Under the pieces are notes generated by a model. The model searched no databases. It was not told the DNA's origin and saw only the letters and a list, made by a program, of their open reading frames with translations. From Phallus indusiatus (lineage: Eukaryota; Basidiomycota; Agaricomycetes; Phallales; Phallaceae), in contig JAQFWX010000037.1 in assembly GCA_027605045.1 (NCBI GenBank), positions 1 to 64,000 on the forward strand: 64,000 nt of DNA. Reading direction: 5' to 3'. The translations under genes and the position numbers were made by a program. Shown piece by piece: positions 51,131 through 62,996 of the stretch (position 1 is the stretch's first letter; every line of letters begins with the position of its first letter).

Positions 51131-53047
51131 ATGGACGCTGGTGAACTCTTTCCGCAAATTGCTTCGGAGATACTGCAGTTTCAAGAATTCACCCGACAGT
51201 TTAGGACTGCTCGTTCAATATCTTGTACGTTCTCCGTGGTTTATCGATGCCCTATTGATGTGTCGTAGGCTCGATCATTACCCTCATTTTTCTCGAGATA
51301 ATATTCACATTCGATAAAGAGGCGAGTTTCCTTAAGATTCTCTCGTTCTCGATGATTTTGAACACACTATCAGATAAATTATATTTGGAGGTATGGGTTT
51401 TCGTACATTTTTGCTCTTTTATGAGGTTTAGCGGCTCACTTTATGGTTTATTCTTCTAAGGCGTCCGTGGTCGTTCTTCAAAGTCTGTTTCCTAGCATGC
51501 AGATATTTCTCTGTAATACCAGCTCTGTAAGGCTTTTCACTATTTTGAGAAGAGATGGATTAATACATAATCGATTCGCGATAGCATAGCCATAGGTATG
51601 GACTCATGTCTCATTCCTGCATAAATTCTCAGAGAGTTGTTAGTCTCCTCTCCCCCGAGTAATATCGTGAGTATATGCTTTCAAGTTTTATATTGGAGCT
51701 GACTGATCCATCACAATGTTCAGTAGTAAGATCTTAGAAATAATCATTACCATATTCGTAACCTTGTTTTCACCCAGTTGTCGATTTGAAGCATGGTACC
51801 TAGGACTGTGCGTCAGACTTCACAATGAAAAACCCCGCTTACTAATAACCTAAATCGATCGTTTCAGCGGCATCATAGTCGTCTCCCTTTTACCTAGCAG
51901 TACTCTCTTAGCTATTAGACTGGATAAGTTATATGCCTCCCAGACGAGTACGCCTTGGTTGATCTGTTTGCATACACCGTTTTTCTGACTGTCGGGTTTG
52001 TTCTCCAGTGCGCAGGGCGTTAATCTGTCTGGTATTGGGTCAGTTATTTGATTTTTCTTCTATTCTTTCTTAGTTTATCATTATTAAACTATCTAACAGC
52101 TGAAGTTATTGTACGTTGGTTCACTATGTATCAGCTCGAATTCTACCTAACACTTGGCGCAAGTCACAAATCGGGGTTGCGATGTCAATTTTGCCCAAAA
52201 CTCAATGGGTGTACAACACAGTTGTTCATGAATGTGCTGCAACTTTCTCTCAATCTGAATGGCTCACCAAAAGCTTATCTATGTCAGTGCTTCGGATGAT
52301 GCTCAATGTCGACTAACAATGTTTGTATAGGCTTCCATATCTGATAATAGTCTGTACGTGATAATATCGCCTCCCCTCATTCCAATCGGCAGGTTGACCT
52401 TTGGATATTAGGCATATATATATTTATTGCCTGGTACGCGTTCATTCGACATCGCCGTGAAAAAGCATCGTTGTCTAGCATACGGGCGGTGCGGAATAAT
52501 TTTGCACCATTTTATATTCTTTTCGTCCGGGATGGCGTACTCTGTTACATTATGTGAGCTTTTATCGTCCTGCATCCAGGCTGCAACTCTAGCTTTGATA
52601 GTAATTTTCGTATGATTGTTTCATTACTTTACTTACTTGGCGTATACTAATAGTCTTCTAGTAGGAATATTTGTCGGGTTTGTCATGTTGGTAGCGATTT
52701 CGAGTGAAAATGCATTGGCTGTGGCTCCTCCTGCGTACGTTCAAGAAATTTCATACGTTCAACACACAGAGGACATGTGTTCATAAATAATAATACTCTT
52801 TATACAGTATTGTCGTCGGGATAACGTCCATATCTGTTCGTCTCGCTCACATGTTCAGTCTCCTGTTTCTAATACTTTTTTTTTTCAGTGCTGTCGGTTA
52901 GCATTGCTTCTACAAGGCGATCCGGGACGTGCGATTGGGGTTTATCAAGCCGGATTGAATACTATTGAACTCCGCGTTGAGACGTTGAAGGATAGGAATT
53001 CAACTACGCCATCAGTTAGCACTTTTTGTCAGACCTATCAGAGTTAA
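51131..53047 (+). CDS. Seven-helix membrane protein, array copy A (DUF6533-like)
   Basis: Eighteen exons: 51131-51224, 51269-51321, 51374-51390, 51461-51526, 51585-51595, 51644-51666, 51724-51725, 51778-51807, 51868-51947, 52009-52038, 52101-52111, 52164-52282, 52331-52353, 52412-52553, 52593-52600, 52662-52734, 52808-52835, 52889-53047. They total 969 nt, 322 residues. TM1 is in exon 2 (IITLIFLEIIFTFDKE), then INYIWRRPWSFFKV (the DUF6533-type block), a CRYFSVIPAL helix, YC.F..WYLG, LLAIRLDKLYASQ, an extracellular loop with HEC, LPYLIIVCIYIFIAW, the basic loop RHRREKASLSSIRAVR, and two more helices ending CCRLALLLQGDPG. Intron 2 has a GC donor (GAG|GCGAGT) where the other copies have GT. The ligand or role of this family is unknown. 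Confidence 0.85.
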
Positions 53048-53831
53048 AGGGGGTGTTTCTGTTCTGTCTGTTGCGCGTACTAGTAGCCATCTGGAGGACT
53101 GAGTCCGATGAGTCATTGTCCATTGGTCGACGGCGTGTAACAGTGTTTGGAATCTGAATAAACTAGATATGGATAATGTAGACCAAGTTTCTCTTCCAGT
53201 TAGAAACAGGCAGCACACCGAAAATCTCATTTGCTGTGAAATTTTTTGAAGCTTGCAGATTCGTCGCACTTTAAGCTAATAAAAGTTCGCAAAATCCCGA
53301 GTCCCGCGAATCTTGGCTTCGGTGGCGCCGCTCGCTTACTCACGGCGTCTTTCTTTTACTCTATCACCACTACAGGAGAATAATTATGATATTCATTGAC
53401 CATTGATGTGTGTTGTCGTTTTCTCATATACATTCTTATCATGGTATTACAGTCAATGTCATACAATGACAGGTGGGAGACCGAATATGAAAGTATGTTG
53501 ACTTGTTTTTAACGAATTTGAGGATTGAACTCAGCGGCGCCCCCTAGAAGTCTGATAGTTGGTCGAGAGTCGGATGCACTTAATGGCATCCCCAGCGCTC
53601 ATAATACGGGTTTATGTGCTCACACGAAGCGCAGCTCCAGAATCGAGGTGTCTGACGAAGAAACGTTTGGGATCAAGCAACTGAGTTGTTCCTCGTTTTG
53701 ATCAAACAACTGAGCTATTCCTCGTTTTGGGCTAGCCTCGGTTCATCGCAATACCTGTGAATGATGCTCCACCCCAAAGTACTTAAAAACACAGCTCAAT
53801 CTCATGCTTATTTTCTGCATTACCTCGAGCG
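53048..53831. other. Spacer between array copies A and B
   Basis: 784 bp containing the 3' UTR of copy A, a 29-bp tandem duplication (53671-53728) and the promoter of copy B. A minus-strand open frame at 53012-53269 overlaps the end of copy A and lacks support. Confidence 0.5.
53671..53728. repeat. 29-bp tandem duplication
   Basis: Two adjacent units, 53671-53699 and 53700-53728, both begin GATCAA.CAACTGAG and end TTCCTCGTTTT, with three mismatches. They lie about 100 bp upstream of the copy B start, in its promoter region. No match in front of the other array copies was seen. Confidence 0.8.
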
Positions 53832-55709
53832 ATGGCTGGCTTCGACATGAACATAACTGGTGAACTCAATGCGTCAGAAATTCTAGAAGAAATGCAGCTG
53901 GTGACAGCCGCACAACAACTTCCCCACGTCCGTTCAATAGCTTGTGTGTCTCAGCTCTCCGAGTGATCCTTCAAAGAGGAAAATAATAATTTTTCGCGTA
54001 GATTGTATTCTTACTTTCATCTCTCTTGAAATAATATCTACCTTCGACAAGGAGGTGAGTTCTTACGCATCATTCCGTGGTAAAGCCTCATGTAGTTCGT
54101 TTTCATAAGGTATTATTTATTTGGAGGTAGTTCATTTGTTCGTTGCTTCTACAAAGAACTTAACGCAAAGCTTCTTTACATACAGGCGTCCTTGGTCCCT
54201 CTTCAAACTCCTTTATGTACCTTGTAGATATCTTTCCGCTATACCGGCTCTGTAAGACTTCCATTTGATATAGCAGTCAAACTGATACGTATTCAATTCG
54301 CAATAGTCTCGTAATAAGTGAGGCCTCTTCCTTGTTGTAAATACAGCATCTCTAATGATTATTAGTACCCCCCGCACCAAGTGATGCTGTGAGTAAATCC
54401 TCCTTAATTCCTCACTTGACTGATTTGTTGATTTTAGTAGTAAGTGACCAACTACCTTGGCCAAATCGAAAATTCATGTATTACAGCTGCGAATTTTATG
54501 CCTGGTACTTGGGTGTGTACGTACCCGTGATAACCATTGTTTCTATATCTCCGGTTTGATAACATGCATATTGTCATAATTAGAATTGGCATGGCTGTCA
54601 CTACTTTACCTGGTAGCTGTCTCTTGGCCATCAGGCTAGATAAATTGTTTAAATCCAAAATAGGTGAGATTCTATGGTATTTTGTGCTCGTTTTATGCTC
54701 AATTATGTATCCAGTGCGCGCAACATTGGCGGTATTAGTGTTTGGTAAGCTATTATACATACCTCTCACATTTGTTCATTGCTTTACTGATACTTGAATG
54801 TTGACAGTTGAAAGTGCTGTAGGTTTCGTCGTTATTATCATCAGCAGCGTCAAAATTAACGTATATTATTGCATCAGTCACAATTAGTAGTTGTGCCGTT
54901 CATTTTAGCCAAGGATACCGTTATTTTTGCTTCGACCCCTATCGGTGGTACTTGTACCGGACATATCTCAAGTTCTACGTGGCTTCACAAAACTTTGCTC
55001 CTGTTAGTGTTTTAGTTATCCCTTGAGACATTTGAACAATTGATGTATATTGATTTAGGATTCCATATCCAGCTATTTTTTGTGCGTGTTCGTTCGGTCA
55101 TCGTGATGTCTCAACGCGCTGATACCTCAAGTCAATAGGTGTATACATTGCTATTGCCTTGTATGCGTTTATTCGACATTGCCGCGAGAAAACATTGTTA
55201 TCTACCATGCGGGTTGTGCGAAAAAATTTCGCGCCGCTTTATCTTCTTTTCATTCGGGACGGTGTGATTTATTATATCATGTGAGTCGGCGCATTCCTCT
55301 CACCACGACGATATTAAGATTTCATAGAAATTTTTGTATAAATCAATTCACTTTTTTTAAATGCCGACACTAATAATCTCTCAGTCGGAATACTGTGTGG
55401 TTTTCTTTTGTTGGCAAATTCTACCGGCACCAGCGTGTTGGTTCTTGCCGGTCCCACGTACGTCTTTATGTAGAGCTATATATTTCATCAATTCATGAAC
55501 GATGGCTTGATAGCATTATTGCTGGAGTAACATCCATCTCCGTAAGTAGTCCCTTTTCAAATGTCTCAGGGGGTTGAGAATATTAACCTGTTTCTGAATC
55601 GTTTGGGTAGTGTTGTCGGTTGGTGCTGCTTCTGCATGGTAATCCGGAACATGCGACCGGGGTGTATGAACTGGACACAAATGAATTCTATGTTGAAACG
55701 AGATATTAG
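53832..55709 (+). CDS. Seven-helix membrane protein, array copy B (DUF6533-like)
   Basis: Eighteen exons: 53832-53943, 54002-54054, 54110-54126, 54186-54251, 54307-54317, 54366-54388, 54438-54439, 54487-54516, 54584-54663, 54715-54744, 54808-54818, 54878-55002, 55059-55081, 55139-55280, 55328-55335, 55385-55457, 55514-55541, 55611-55709. They total 933 nt, 310 residues, the shortest copy owing to a short tail after CCRLVLLLHGNPEHATGVY. Landmarks: ILTFISLEIISTFDKE (TM1), FIWRRPWSLFKLL, CRYLSAIPALLVI, IPPAPSDA then YCEFYAWYLGV, LLAIRLDKLFKSK, GTCTGHISSSTWLHK, RHCREKTLLSTMRVVR and GILCGFLLLANS. Exon 3 starts after AAG rather than the usual CAG. Same exon lengths and phases as the other copies, apart from exons 1, 12 and 18 (and exon 4 in copy C). 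Confidence 0.85.
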
Positions 55710-57278
55710 TGGAGATATACAAGTTCGCTGATTTGTATCTTTTCAGTGGGTCTATTCTAGACATCCGATCGTTTCTGGTTCAGTGTCGATTTAAATTAAA
55801 CATGTTGTTATTTATTGTCTAAAGATTCGTGCTTGTTCGAATGTACTTTAAGGTATTATGTTGCTCAAAAATCACGATGATGTTGAGCGCTGAAGCGCTG
55901 AAGGACGGCGGCCGGACTCCGGAGATCATGGGAGATGTGACCGACGCCTTTTCGTCTGAATCGTCCCCGTTCTTGTATTATGATCGCAATCTTGAAGCCT
56001 CTTGTTTTTGGCCCTGTGATTTCGCGAAATGCATGTCGTTGGAGTGCCGAGTGTTGCGCGACGTTGAACCCCCGTTTGCAATTGAAGTGCGCCTCCCCCC
56101 AATTCGCAGAGGAAATAGGCCGGATAGCACTCGAGTGTGCACGACAACAGTTTCATGGACGTATTTTCTTATCAATTAACTGAAAAAAGTTCGTATTTCG
56201 GAGTCGCTGTCTAAATTGCACATTGTGCAGTTCAAGCTCAAGAAAATCAGGCGCGGTTTGATCGGGGTTAACCAGAAGACCTTGTCAACATTTTTTCTGG
56301 TGAGCTGGTGTCGCAACAAGCCATATAATAACGTCATCTAATGCAGTCTTCTACACATTCTTTGCTATGTTCTATGTCCTCGCCCAACGCTACTAGTAGG
56401 AGTAACGTTGTCTGAATACTACGTCTCCACTCGTTTCAAGTTCGCCTCGTAACATTTCTATAAAAGGTCGCGCGAATTCAATGGTTTCGGTTATCACAAC
56501 AGCCTATCAGCAGTGTTTCACAAGAGCTACACACGCAACTCGCCGTATGGCTGTTATGCGATTCCTGATGACCACGAGCGTCAAAGCGTCATCTTCAATC
56601 TACCCCGTGCCAGGCAGTTTGCTTGCTCCATGCTCTTGCTCAATTATCATCCCTTTCAAGTTGTGGCTTAAGTTTGTCAACCACTTTGAGTTGCATTACA
56701 TAGAAGAAACGGTCTGCCGTAGCAATCGAAGCCAGGCTGTGGCTGCCACGGTGTTGAGGCTATAACTCATGTGTTGGCTTGTGCTGATTGCTATAAATGA
56801 CTATATACGTGGTATGATCATTGTATTTCTATCTTCATAGGTGACTGATTAAAATGTTTTATACGGTTTGTATTTTACTGCTCCATCTCATATGGTACCA
56901 ATTGGAATATCAATGGATTCTGCCAGTGCCCAAGTTCTTTGATCTGAAAGAAATCAGTAATACAACTCCTTCTGAGATGAGAAGGTATATATCTGCGCCA
57001 AATTGTATTCACAACAGTGATCCGACTTCGCGATCCGAAGGACCTTGCCGTGTCTGAAGAGACTCTTCTTAGAACCTCTCAGAGCATCAGGAGCTGCGCA
57101 GACCTGGAGTTGCTGGAACACCTCAGGATAATTGAACCCAGTTTTGATCGCTCAATAATCAATATCCTTTTATTTCTTGTGAGCTCAAGCCGCAACAGGT
57201 CATATAAAATGGCGTTCGTTGCGTGCCGTAGGCTGGGATACCTTAAACACAGTCCAATCTTTTGCTCATTTTTCCGCT
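55710..57278 (+). pseudogene. Decayed array copy between B and C
   Basis: The interval is about twice the usual spacing and holds relics of another copy. At 56378 an ATGTCCTCGCCCAACGC start resembles copy C's ATGTCCTCACAGAGCAA start. The sequence before it (TGTGAGC.. then CGCAACA.G.CATATAA near 56300-56330) parallels the copy C upstream region near 57180-57210. Around 56595-56640, IYPVPGSLLAP recalls the exon 9 block TTLPGSCLLAIR. Other exons are not recognisable and stops interrupt the frame. Boundaries are approximate. Confidence 0.5.
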
Positions 57279-59217
57279 ATGTCCTCACAGAGCAATACGA
57301 CTGCCACGTCTTCACCTTCGTTGGAGCAGGAAGAACAATTCCGACAACAGCTTTTCTCTACTCGTTCAATAGCTTGTAGGTTTAATTTTCCATGCCGACC
57401 ATTGATTCGCAAAAAAAGATCTGAAGACTCGTTGTACAGACTGTCTTCTTACTCTCATTATTCTTGAGATACTATTTACGTTCAACAAAGAGGTAAGCTT
57501 TACTCAAGGCACGTTGCGGTGTTGTCTCCGTACAGGATTCTTATTAACCCACCAGATAATATACGTTTGGAGGTATTCCATTCATCCAAGCTTGTTTTAT
57601 TTTGATCGGAGAACTCAAAGAAACGGTACTACAAAGGCGTCCAGGCTGGTCCTTCTTCAAGGTCTTTTACATATTGTGTAGATATCTTCCCATTGTCCCG
57701 ACCCTGTAAATCTTCTGTTTTATCTGTTGTGTTTTTGTAACCACTCATGCCCTATAGTATTGTAATAGGTAAACCTATTTTTTGTCTTCGCACCGCGGTG
57801 GTTTTGACAGTTATTAGTTCCTTTCGCGCCAAGCGATGCTGTGAGTATACTCATCACTGACTTTCTCACTTCACTGATCCATTTGTTATATTCAGTAGTA
57901 AGTAATCAGATGGTACCGTTCTTAGTTGATGTTATGAAGCTATGCCCTATAGCTGTACGTTTGTGGCGTGGTACCTCGGTCTGTGCGTAATATGCCTTGC
58001 GTGTTTTTAAAAGATTGGGACTCACCACTGCGTCGGGAATTTAATACTTAATGATCACAGTGTTAATACAATTTTTACTGTCTGGCCTAGTAGTTGCCTT
58101 TTGGCTATTAGATTGGACAGGCTGTACGCGTCCAAAAGCAGTAAGATGGAACGAAGTTTACATCACTATCTGTCAAATTGATCGTTGATTGCTTTGTTTT
58201 TAGTTCGCAAGATACTGATAACTTTAGTCCTTGGTTAGTTTTTTTCTTGTCTTTGTCCCTTTGAACGCTTACCTTTTTTAGCTGAGGGTATTGTACGAAT
58301 CCTTTGTTATTAGGTATGCTTTGATTGACGGATGATCTTGTACCAGTCGATCCTAGTAGTTGGATCGTCCACCGTAACCAAAGAGAAACTGAGCTACGTT
58401 GGAGAGCCAGTGAACAATTGCGTTGGACATGTCTCAGGATCCTTCTGGCTCGCCAAAAGTTTGATTTTGTCAGTGAAATTTCAATAGCCTTTTCTCCCAT
58501 GAAATCTGAAAAAAATCCAATTTGTTTAGCCTCCCATACCTTAGTCTGGCCTGTAAGTATCCAGCATTATATCCTGACGTGTATACGCAACTCAAACATA
58601 ATAGGTGCATACATTGCTATTGCCTGGTATGCATTTATTCGACACTGTCGGGAGAAAGCATCACTATCTAGTATCTGGGCTGTGCGGAAAATTTTCGCGC
58701 CTCTCTATGTCCTTCTTATCCGAGACGGCTTAGTCTGCTACATTATGTAGGGTTTGCAGTGTTCATCTTATTGGTATCCAGCCTCACACCCAGATTTTAT
58801 AGTAACACCTGTATATTTGCTTTGCTTGAACCTCTCGCTAATACTAACAAATCTTAGTTGGTATACTGTGCGGCTTTCTTCTTTTGACGGTTCCTTCCAA
58901 GTCAAGCGAGCTGGTTTTGGTTGGTCCTGTGTACGTTATCGCATTCATCTTCGGTTTGATAAATATGTTTATAACCTTTCATAGCGTAATTTCCGTAGTA
59001 ACATCTATGTCCGTAAGTCCTCACTTTAAAAACTTCATAATCAAAGGTGCTCTAATCTGTTTCATCTCGGTAGTGCTGTCGATTAGTCTTGCTTCTTCAT
59101 GGTGATCCAGGATATGCAACCGGGGTTTATGTAGATTCCACCGAAGTTCACGTCGAGATGATGAAGCTGGAAGAATCATCGACCTGTGCGTCTTTTGAAG
59201 CTCCAAGGGATGTATAA
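57279..59217 (+). CDS. Seven-helix membrane protein, array copy C (DUF6533-like)
   Basis: Eighteen exons: 57279-57375, 57440-57492, 57556-57572, 57637-57705, 57758-57768, 57818-57840, 57896-57897, 57953-57982, 58061-58140, 58204-58233, 58282-58292, 58347-58468, 58530-58552, 58605-58746, 58794-58801, 58858-58930, 58985-59012, 59074-59217. They total 963 nt, 320 residues. Exon 4 is 69 nt, one codon longer than in the others (RRPGWSFFKV). Landmarks: LLTLIILEILFTFNKE, CRYLPIVPTLIVI, VPFAPSDA then YCTFVAWYLGL, LLAIRLDRLYASK, NNCVGHVSGSFWLAK, RHCREKASLSSIWAVRK, GILCGFLLLTVPSKSSE and CCRLVLLLHGDPGYATGVY. All introns are GT-AG. The C-terminal tail is acidic. It follows the same plan as copies A, B and E. 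Confidence 0.85.
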
Positions 59218-60979
59218 TCCGTCTCGGTGTGATCACCTGTACCGGTAATTCAATTGTTGACTCGAAAATTTATGACCAGCCTAACGCTGCTGCTTAATTT
59301 TTATGTCAAAGCTTCTTTAATCTTGCAAATAGAAATAAAAGTTATGGTATCTTTTGGAGGTTGAGCATAGGAACGTATCTATTTTTTTTTTACACTGTCG
59401 TCACGGTCAAGCGGTCGTTAGCGCGAAAGCATGTTACGGGCGCCTTTTCGGTTTCCGTCTGTTCGTCGTCATCGCGTCACTTTCACAAAAACAGACATAC
59501 TGCGTAAGCATGCCTTGTAACTCATGGTTTATTGTTGATAGCACGAGCTGAAAGCACGTTACATTCTCACTTATTCGACCGGTGTATCTATTTTGCCAAT
59601 GGAGTTGAGCACTGAACGCACAGAAGTTTGATGCAAACCTATCGGTCTTTCGTCTTTGGTTTGGTCGTTGCAGGTCATTCAAGCGTTACATCCGAGCGCT
59701 ACAGCAATAGCCTCCTTACTTCACACAAATGTGCACAAAAGGGCTCCTGCCTGCGGCTCAAAAGCTTGAGATATAGCAAGAATGGGGGTTAAATATGGAC
59801 AGCTTAAGACGATTGGTATGGAGATACCTTCTTGACAACAAAATCGGGTGCCGCTTTTTGCCTTACATGAGCTGATTTGGCAACCCGAAGAACGTTTGCA
59901 CCATCAGGATAAGACAGCTGAGGTTCTTGCTCAGTTCGTCCCACACAACTCGTATAAACGGAGGCCGATCTATTTCGTGCGCTGAGGAGTCTAACAGCAA
60001 GACGCAGTACCTTCACAGCCCGATAGGTTACTTCGTCATATTTGATAAAATCTCAGTGCAAACCTTTTCCTTGTCAATGGTCGTTTTTCAGGTTCTTTTA
60101 TTTAATACGTTGTGGGTATCTTTCAATTATAGCGGCTCTGTAAGACTTCCGTTTCATTTTCCAGTTTGTATTGATATGGCTTACGGAGCTAACCCACGTA
60201 AACCTATTTTACACAGCTGCTCCACAGGACCTAAGGCCTAAACACGCACCATATCATGTATGGTTGGCTCGTCCATGGGCGTCAAAGCGATTTGATATAC
60301 TCGCTCCATGGCATATGCTCTTGTCAGCGCCTGCTGTTGTGCCGACAAACTCTATATACGTAGCATCAGCTAACACTGCTTCCAGATCTTCGTTTACGTT
60401 TGTTGATTGATTTGATTTGCGATGAAGAAATCGGTCCATGTGGAGGTCAAAACGTTGGATGGGCCTCGCGGCATCGGGCTGAGGCTATGATAGGTCTGTG
60501 TTGGCTCTGTGCAGATGGCTCCCAATGACACATTGTACGGATACTGTGTTTATTTCTATTCTCAATATTTTCTGTGCTGCTCGTTCTTTGTCCTTTGTTC
60601 CGCGATGGTACCTACGGCGAGGATTCCACGACGGTTTATTTTCACTATGTTCCAATTCTAGTTACCAAATTAACTACACCATGTGAAGGTATCGAACTGC
60701 GATGTTTCTTTGACGTGCCGTGTGGTGGAAACCCCAATCATGACCAATCAATCAAATGATGCTTCCCAACCCCTATCATACGTTTACCATTTCAATCTTT
60801 TCTTCATCAAACATCCATCCTAGCGCTTCTCCTTGAGCTAAGGCCACAATTGCTGTTGGGAGAATTCATATATTGCAATGTTCGATGAAGTAATTGAGCT
60901 CCTTTGCCTTCTTTTGTTCGTATATATTGTATCACCTTCCACCTAATTTATCGCCTGGTTGCCACCACTTATTACTACT
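59218..60979 (+). pseudogene. Decayed array copy between C and E
   Basis: A relic of exon 4 with its donor is clear at 60084-60139: translated it gives FFRFFYLIRCGYLSIIAAL followed by gtaagacttcc, against FFKV..I.CRYL.I.PAL in intact copies. A relic of exon 14 is at about 60577-60620 (VLCPLFRDG against LYILFFRDG). Exons 1-3 and most of the rest are lost or scrambled. The remainder of the interval (59218-60080 and 60770-60979) shows no gene and includes the promoter of copy E. Confidence 0.6.
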
Positions 60980-62996
60980 ATGCACATGAGCAGCACTAAT
61001 GAAACCGAAGTTATTTTGCAGGCGTTGCCAGAAATCGAAGCGTTGACGCAACGACTTCGCTACGTCATTTCAATATCTTGTAGGTTATCACTTTTGCCAC
61101 GACAACATGCATGGAAAAAAATTGACAAGCTCTTGCTTAGGTTGTATTGTTACGTTTATCCTACTTGAAATATTATCTACATTGAACGAGGAAGTGAGTC
61201 TTTAACGGATGTTTACGATGGGAATTATTGCTGACCTTTATCAGATAGCCTACATTTGGAGGTAATTCAATTCTCTTTCTACTTGCGAGATCATTCAGAG
61301 CTCCCCCGAAGGCGACCTTGGTCACTCTTTAAGATACTTTTCATACAATGCCGGTATCTTTCCATCATACCCGCCATGTAAGGCTAGTTTATCAACGACT
61401 GTACTAACGCATATCTGACTTACAATACACAGCGTGTTAATAGGTAGATATCATTCTGTCCCCTTGTGGCTTTAATCTGACAGATCAATAGTTCCTCCTG
61501 CACCAAGGAACGCCGTGAGTACATTTATACTAAGTTAGTGGAGATTTTCTCGCTTTATTGATCCATTATTCTCATCCTCAGTAGTGAGTTATCGAGTGTT
61601 GTTTTTTCCAAGAAGACCTAATGAATACAACTATATAGCTGTTCATTTCAAGATTGGTATATGGGCCTGTATGTGTATATGCATGATTAATATTAATTTG
61701 CGAAACGACGCCTTTACTCACTCAATTAACAGAGTTAATACATTTCTCACTCTTTCGGCCGGTAGTGCACTCCTAGCTATCAGGTTAGATAGATTGTATG
61801 CTTCCAAACGGAGTAAGGTTTTGTCTTGTTTTCAATGTTTTTCTCTCTAAATAGTTGGGTGTCTAGTGCGCAGAATATTGATAGCCTTAGTTTTCGGTCA
61901 GTCCCTCTACTTCCATATTCATGAATTTTTCAACAAGTCACAACTATCAACAGTTGAAAATGCAGTATGAACTATTCTTTGCGATAAAAGCATTCCAGTT
62001 GACGCTTTGTTTTGATAAGTTGCAGCTAGCAGCCTCAGTGTCAGTGTTACCCAAGTTTACTTTAATGTATACTCCGAACCCCTTGGGGATTCCCGCTGGT
62101 GTTTCTGGTTATTGTAATGTATTGAATGTCTCGAGATCACTGTGGCTTTCAAAGAGTTTTATTATGTTAGTGTTTCAAATATTTTCCTGAATTTTTTTTT
62201 CGATGCTTAACAGTCCGCTAGGCTTCCCTATCTGATTTTGGTTTGTAAGTATCCGGTGCTAGTATCACACAATATGATCTTGCTTAGTATGCAATTTGAC
62301 CCGCGTGATAGGCATATATATTGCCATCGCCTGGCATGCATTTACTCGACACCGTCGCGAGAAAGCATCCTTGTCTAATATCTGGGCCGTACGGAAGAAT
62401 TTCGCTCCGCTTTATATTCTTTTCTTTCGTGACGGAGTAATTTGCTACATCATGTGGGTCTCACTGATACTTATATATGTCCAAGCTTACAAGATTATAG
62501 CAATTTTTGTAATCAATTCTCCTCATGGATTTGTGTTAATATTAACCAGTTTCTAGTCGGGATATTGTGTGGTTTTCTCCTATTGACAGTTCCCTCCGGT
62601 ATAAATTACCTGGCTTTGGTTGGCCCCGTGTACGTTCTCATGTAAGAATCTGCACTCAGAAAACTAATTATTTCTTGCAGTGTTATCACTGGAATAACGT
62701 CCATATCCGTTCGTATTGTTGTGTACTCGCGAAAGAAGATATTCAGCTGACTTGCTTTATCCTGATAGTGCTGTCGACTGGCGTTGCTTCTGCACGGTGA
62801 TCCGGGGCATGCGACGGGGGTTTATCAGATGGACATAAACGAAGTTTGCGTCGAGGTAGTGGTGACGGAAGATCCCGAACCCACAGATCTGCAATTCTTG
62901 GAAGAAGCAGAAGGATGTTTTGGTTTGTCTGCTACGGCAAAGCACAACAGATTCAATGATGAGGATGTCGGACTCGGACCCGTCGTCGTCTTATAA
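60980..62996 (+). CDS. Seven-helix membrane protein, array copy E (DUF6533-like)
   Basis: Eighteen exons: 60980-61079, 61141-61193, 61245-61261, 61312-61377, 61433-61443, 61492-61514, 61582-61583, 61639-61668, 61733-61812, 61867-61896, 61954-61964, 62026-62165, 62222-62244, 62312-62453, 62501-62508, 62557-62629, 62681-62708, 62769-62996. They total 1,065 nt, 354 residues, the longest copy, with a longer loop exon 12 and an acidic tail. Landmarks: IVTFILLEILSTLNEE, IAYIWRRPWSLFKILF, CRYLSIIPAIVLI, VPPAPRNA then YCSFQDWYMGL, LLAIRLDRLYASK, loop Cys in VSGYCNVLN, LPYLILVCIYIAIAW, RHRREKASLSNIWAVRK, GILCGFLLLTVPSG, CCRLALLLHGDPGHATGVY. A second ATG at 60986 could be the start. Confidence 0.85.

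Follow-up and report, generated by a model that had tools for sequence, protein, structure and literature searches.

Can two nucleotides between two ordinary introns form a coding exon of their own? The question is raised by a stretch of 64,000 nt of the Phallus indusiatus genome (contig JAQFWX010000037.1, positions 1 to 64,000; hereafter the window, located on the contig we call C137), in which four related genes encoding proteins of the DUF6533 family, designated A, B, C and E, each hold the dinucleotide TA between two splice sites at the same place. An earlier note on this DNA had proposed that TA is exon 7 of each gene. We conclude that it is almost certainly a real and normally included coding exon of a subfamily of fungal DUF6533 membrane proteins, and that the introns beside it are probably removed in turn. 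The exon is present in every modelled copy of the subfamily in the genome, is necessary for the reading frame of the window genes, and is included in the products of several genes.

All four genes lie on the (+) strand. In gene A, exon 6 (23 nt, 51644..51666) is followed by intron 6 (57 nt, 51667..51723, GTGAGT...CAG), the TA of exon 7 (51724..51725), intron 7 (52 nt, 51726..51777, GTAAGA...CAG) and exon 8 (30 nt, 51778..51807). The same series in gene B runs through exon 6 (23 nt, 54366..54388), intron 6 (49 nt, 54389..54437), TA (54438..54439), intron 7 (47 nt, 54440..54486) and exon 8 (30 nt, 54487..54516). Gene C has exon 6 at 57818..57840 (23 nt), intron 6 at 57841..57895 (55 nt), TA at 57896..57897, intron 7 at 57898..57952 (55 nt) and exon 8 at 57953..57982 (30 nt), and the corresponding positions in gene E are 61492..61514 (23 nt), 61515..61581 (67 nt), 61582..61583, 61584..61638 (55 nt) and 61639..61668 (30 nt). 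The 2-nt exon is thereby bordered on both sides by GT-AG introns of 47–67 nt in all four genes, and on re-checking, its positions and the flanking intron lengths matched the earlier note exactly. The dinucleotide forms bases 1 and 2 of a codon directly ahead of a conserved cysteine; with the T of exon 8 it gives TAT in gene A, and the codon is TAC in B, C and E, so that each encodes tyrosine. The exon is assigned in each gene from the frame and from the aligner described below, and in A and C its residue is also found in a product (P0001 and P0004, respectively).

We found that exons 1–9 form an open frame in all four genes when TA is included, and that stops appear in all four when it is left out; skipping TA had been expected to break the frame, and the stops extend beyond gene A, where one had been pointed out. 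Use of TAG as the acceptor makes the next codon TAA in A, B and C, as had been stated, and TGA in E. We listed the in-frame ways of connecting exon 6 to exon 8, either directly or through a single internal exon, and among them only the 2-nt exon was shared by all four genes.

Conservation of the exon across the genome

The genome searched comprises 67.2 Mb in 206 contigs, and loci were modelled with our own splice-aware protein-to-DNA aligner, which allows exons of any length. With gene E alone as the query of the first aligner pass, the 2-nt exon was recovered at the same place in 4/4 window genes; some adjacent small exons were misplaced in that pass, and a first profile put exons 5 and 6 in the wrong place in both A and C, and exon 11 in A. 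The 55 modelled loci include 42 copies of the microexon subfamily, from both haplotypes, together with 13 distant DUF6533 genes. The 2-nt exon was found in 42/42 of these subfamily copies, alleles included, a set that was obtained by protein searches and may not be complete. Allelic pairs are frequent among them, and we estimate from the tree that the copies represent about two dozen independent loci. The description of this exon as a feature of four paralogues was therefore correct for A, B, C and E but an undercount. The distant relatives amount to 14 loci (L021–L023 and L061–L071), modelled in all cases but L064, and stand outside the 42/42 count. Their use as an outgroup in which this region lies in one exon was dropped, the alignments being too poor.

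Of the 42 copies, 41 were tabulated and one was added later. The tabulated dinucleotide is TA in 32 copies (Tyr), TT in seven (Phe) and CA in two (His), and in these 41 copies intron 6 spans 48–73 nt and intron 7 spans 47–68 nt, with GT-AG borders on both sides. The tree, which has long branches, separates two deep clades with a distance of about two changes per column between them, and the exon occurs in each; the TT state requires at least two changes on it. Across 11 non-allelic pairs, the identity of exons 6 and 8 together was 0.52–0.72, that of intron 7 was 0.46–0.54 in 11/11, and that of intron 6 was 0.50–0.72. Between paralogues intron 6 is better conserved than intron 7, because it clearly exceeds the shuffled value (0.46–0.54) in 4/11 pairs (B–C, C–E, L024–L018 and C–L016) and intron 7 reaches only 0.46–0.54. 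Exon 7 of L027 was set by hand for this comparison and was afterwards recovered by the aligner; exon 6 of C', an allele of gene C, was set by hand both here and for the dinucleotide table.

How often would such an arrangement be expected by chance? All 41 gaps between exon 6 and exon 8 hold an AG-NN-GT that 40 nt or more separate from each end of the gap, against about 5.0 expected from dinucleotide shuffles, and with a G at donor position +5 also required the counts were 39/41 and about 0.7; the gaps come from related copies and are not independent trials. Masking the exon 7 acceptor lowered the alignment score by 6.9 to 54.2 across the 41 copies; a drop is expected by construction, and its size is what carries information. 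Counting introns 6 and 7, the 685 modelled introns have a median length of 56 nt and a 95th percentile of 69 nt. The two-intron reading fits the intron lengths of these genes, since intron 6, the two bases and intron 7 read as a single intron would span 98–127 nt, and only two of the 685 reach 98 nt.

The residue at the junction in expressed products

A public protein search with gene A returned three proteins, and a second, made with an alignment, added six more from the best 7999 candidates. Eight of the nine carry the source tag 'lgn', which we take to mark assemblies of public sequencing runs. The exon 7 site is covered by seven of the nine; P0003 does not extend to it, and P0009 is an annotated protein of another fungus, Gautieria morchelliformis (Gomphales), the only named relative, with 31% identity. 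Spliced with the 2-nt exon, exons 3–11 translate exactly into P0001 (gene A), P0004 (gene C), P0002 (gene H'), P0005 (L020_2), P0008 (L020_1) and P0007 (L049 and L050). P0007 has histidine at the site, matching the CA of L049 and L050, and P0006 matches L024 over the first 72 of its 90 residues, junction included. The residue supplied by the 2-nt exon is present in these seven contig proteins, and its presence in the products of A and C bears out the view that TA is a genuine coding exon completing a tyrosine codon. The earlier note had also proposed looking for mRNAs that run from exon 6 through TA into exon 8; we found this joining, at the protein level, for A, C and five more members. Skip-form sequence was seen in 0/7 of the proteins that cover the site.

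P0004 is the full-length product of gene C. P0001 and gene A are identical at 231 of 234 residues; they differ in the final residue and by one two-residue gap, at a place where exon 11 was wrongly drawn in the first model. Among six product ends tested by reading on into the genome, P0001 and P0002 run on into introns 14 and 15, respectively, the start of P0003 lies within intron 8, and P0004 ends normally. Retained-intron sequence is thus contained in 3/8 contig proteins, and because introns would be absent from a computed splice model, the contigs behind these proteins are taken to be RNA-derived. By gene, the retained introns are intron 14 of gene A, intron 15 of gene H' and intron 8 of gene L055, possibly a sign of inefficient splicing near small exons.

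Order of intron removal and rival explanations

How might so short an exon be spliced? Both introns beside the dinucleotide are short and of the U2 GT-AG type, and because its acceptor and donor are 2 nt apart and could not both be bound at once, the introns would have to be removed one at a time. We infer that each short intron is recognised singly by intron definition and that removal is consecutive: the first cut would fuse the dinucleotide to a neighbouring exon, after which the second intron would be removed. If intron 6 were removed first, the two bases would become the end of exon 6. The donor of intron 6 matches GTRNGT in 39/41 copies and that of intron 7 in 12/41, and this stronger donor weakly suggests, from the sequence, that intron 6 goes first. 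It is only a hint, since weak donors are found at further introns of these genes too; in intron 12, a purine occupies +3 in 2/41 copies and a pyrimidine in 39/41. The intron 7 donor itself differs between the clades, with a pyrimidine at +3 in 14/17 copies of the second clade (GTCCGT in six, GTTCGT in six and GTCTGT in two) and in 0/24 of the other.

A stricter form of this scheme is recursive splicing, a mechanism that the earlier note had raised as possible, in which intron 6 is always removed first, the resulting ..TA|GT junction serves as donor for the second step, and intron 7 is never removed earlier. The difference between the donors of introns 6 and 7 speaks for it. Against this, no splicing intermediate has been seen, weak donors such as that of intron 12 occur elsewhere in these genes, and a published passage quotes the 9-nt exon of potato invertase with the second intron removed first. 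We regard obligate recursion as a serious possibility whose chances fall somewhat short of even. A strict zero-nucleotide version does not fit, the two bases being kept in the product. The opposite view would hold that AG-TA-GT is a chance occurrence and that splicing runs straight from exon 6 to exon 8 or uses a displaced site, giving truncated or altered products. Further in-frame joins can indeed be written in every gene, one of them in gene A with the normal strong exon 6 donor; those without an internal exon number nine in A, five in B, six in C and three in E, and one pair of offsets is common to A and E. However, none is common to all four genes, each alters the spacing of the motifs in exons 6 and 8, the AG-NN-GT count expected by chance is far under that observed, and the products of A and C hold exactly the residue that depends on TA. 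One search, for gene A only, gave no candidate for its truncated skip product (about 50–159 aa), and the length limits of the product searches disfavour such products. We consider this explanation very unlikely.

Two adjacent introns only 2 nt apart also bring to mind the twin introns, or stwintrons, documented in ascomycete fungi (PMC12403724), in which one intron is nested in a splice signal of the other and the two bases would be absent from the mRNA. In a [D1,2] stwintron, a G must stand just before the internal donor; exon 6 ends in G in 3/41 copies, but in C, T or A in 38/41. The frame moreover requires the two extra bases, and the products keep both of them within a codon. The exon 6 ends and the products rule this reading out, and we give it practically no weight. 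Nothing was found in favour of an assembly or sequencing artefact, which is similarly improbable: the exon recurs in alleles that lie on different contigs (C137 and C151) and at many further loci, and products taken from other sequence assemblies show it too.

Several points weigh against a normally included 2-nt exon with introns removed in turn. The product evidence consists of proteins and not nucleotide contigs, so that the junction is read from the residue, and the public protein searches found no products of B, E or any TT member. Over exons 3–11, P0006 differs from both L024 and L028 and is thus another allele or a mixed assembly, and the read-on test did not account for the C-termini of P0006 and P0008. 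Gautieria protein P0009 has serine at the aligned site. The aligner placed spurious 2-nt exons in the poorly aligned distant relatives L021, L062 and L066, and score support was weak in four copies (drops of 6.9 in L027, 6.9 in L051, 9.1 in L052 and 10.0 in L020_2); L020_2 is covered by product P0005. The first model of L027 had no 2-nt exon, giving 20 + 11 nt and not 20 + 2. The proposed order of splicing is read indirectly, from the spacing and strength of the splice sites.

Known systems offer several comparisons. The closest is a 1-nt exon in Fusarium CYP621A (PMC12940212, 2026), which according to its abstract is the first in a fungal gene. Like the exon described here, it is an ultra-short fungal coding exon with two short introns beside it and is needed for the frame; it is described as the same in all 24 genes compared, with support from Sequence Read Archive (SRA) reads in two species. 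It differs in being 1 nt long, in P450 genes and constant in its base (AG-G-GT), whereas the exon of the DUF6533 genes is 2 nt long and its dinucleotide varies with the encoded residue. Conserved, RNA-verified ultra-short exons are also described for Arabidopsis APC11 (PMC4674806) and plant VPS55 (PMC8831610), in plants and of 1 nt. The placing of 2 nt near the lower limit for exons is therefore agreed, yet 1-nt exons have been published in all three of these reports. The stwintrons of ascomycetes share short, packed introns and consecutive removal under intron definition (PMC12403724), but nothing between those introns reaches the mRNA, and in the DUF6533 genes two bases do. P450 genes of Phanerochaete chrysosporium resemble the present family in their many small exons, frequent 45–55 bp introns and clustering, although the shortest exon mentioned for them is 6 bp (PMC1184071). 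Annotated 1-bp exons that lack experimental support are mentioned in PMC3064661. Among known ultra-short exons, the shortest published being 1 nt, the DUF6533 exon is a strong new case with unusually broad conservation.

We found no paper describing a 2-nt exon in the accessible parts of the open-licence literature. A bolder claim would be that no 2-nt exon before this one had the support of expressed products, that no known ultra-short exon is more widely duplicated, and that it is spliced in obligate order, intron 6 first; we put this forward tentatively and think it somewhat doubtful. The claim of priority refers to the open-licence literature, and exons of 2–5 bp in Arabidopsis, Drosophila and human are cited by PMC12940212. 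Should the obligate order be true, the TA, TT and CA exons, with their series of strong and weak donors, would measure the smallest exon that the spliceosome tolerates. Ultra-short exons, whose two splice sites cannot be bound at once, allow a direct test of exon definition against intron definition, and the more than 40 copies in this one genome, with three exon versions and two deep clades, provide a natural test set.

Gene architecture and genomic setting

Genes A (51131..53005), B (53832..55697), C (57279..59217) and E (60980..62996), all on the (+) strand, have 18 exons each. The 3′ ends given for A and B are model predictions; the stop position of C comes from the sequence. PF20151 (DUF6533) is listed for P0001, and a Pfam scan of spliced proteins, which took in E and C, gave matches of 43.2 bits for gene E and 41.4 bits for exons 1–9 of gene C (cut-off 24.1). 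A simple scan of P0004 showed nine partly overlapping hydrophobic peaks, consistent with a membrane protein of several spans.

The usual subfamily gene likewise has 18 exons, and the internal lengths are almost constant across the modelled copies (53, 17, 66, 11, 23/20, 2, 30, 80, 30, 11, variable, 23, 142/148, 8, 73/70 and 28 nt); the models of a few copies deviate slightly from this or extend past the fetched stretch. Two further microexons in the window are exon 5, of 11 nt (A 51585..51595, B 54307–54317, C 57758–57768, E 61433–61443, (+) strand), and exon 15, of 8 nt (A 52602..52609, B 55328–55335, C 58803–58810, E 62501–62508, (+) strand), the latter found in the gene C product P0004. Because 10/18 exons are 30 nt or shorter, gene-finding programs may overlook such genes or break them up, and in related fungi the subfamily may often be misannotated.

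The tandem cluster extends past the window, from 51 kb to about 90 kb on C137, and an allelic cluster occupies 57 kb to about 106 kb of C151. The C151 cluster contains C' (L011), which has an apparent frameshift in exon 4 and an intact exon 7 and was modelled as 88 + 30 nt in place of 69 + 11 + 23. C151 also holds an additional A-like gene, A2', whose exon 6 is 29 nt and whose counterpart was not seen on C137. In the whole genome, with 150 of 973 candidates scored, there are at least 150 single-frame DUF6533 matches, all over the family cut-off, a very large expansion. Within the window, gene A has a GC donor (GCGAGT) at exon 2 (51322–51323), where B, C and E have GT. An isolated exon-4-like fragment, 'D', lies at 60075–60140; its frame is open when read as exon 4, and 60106–60165 is 80% like gene B at 54218–54277.

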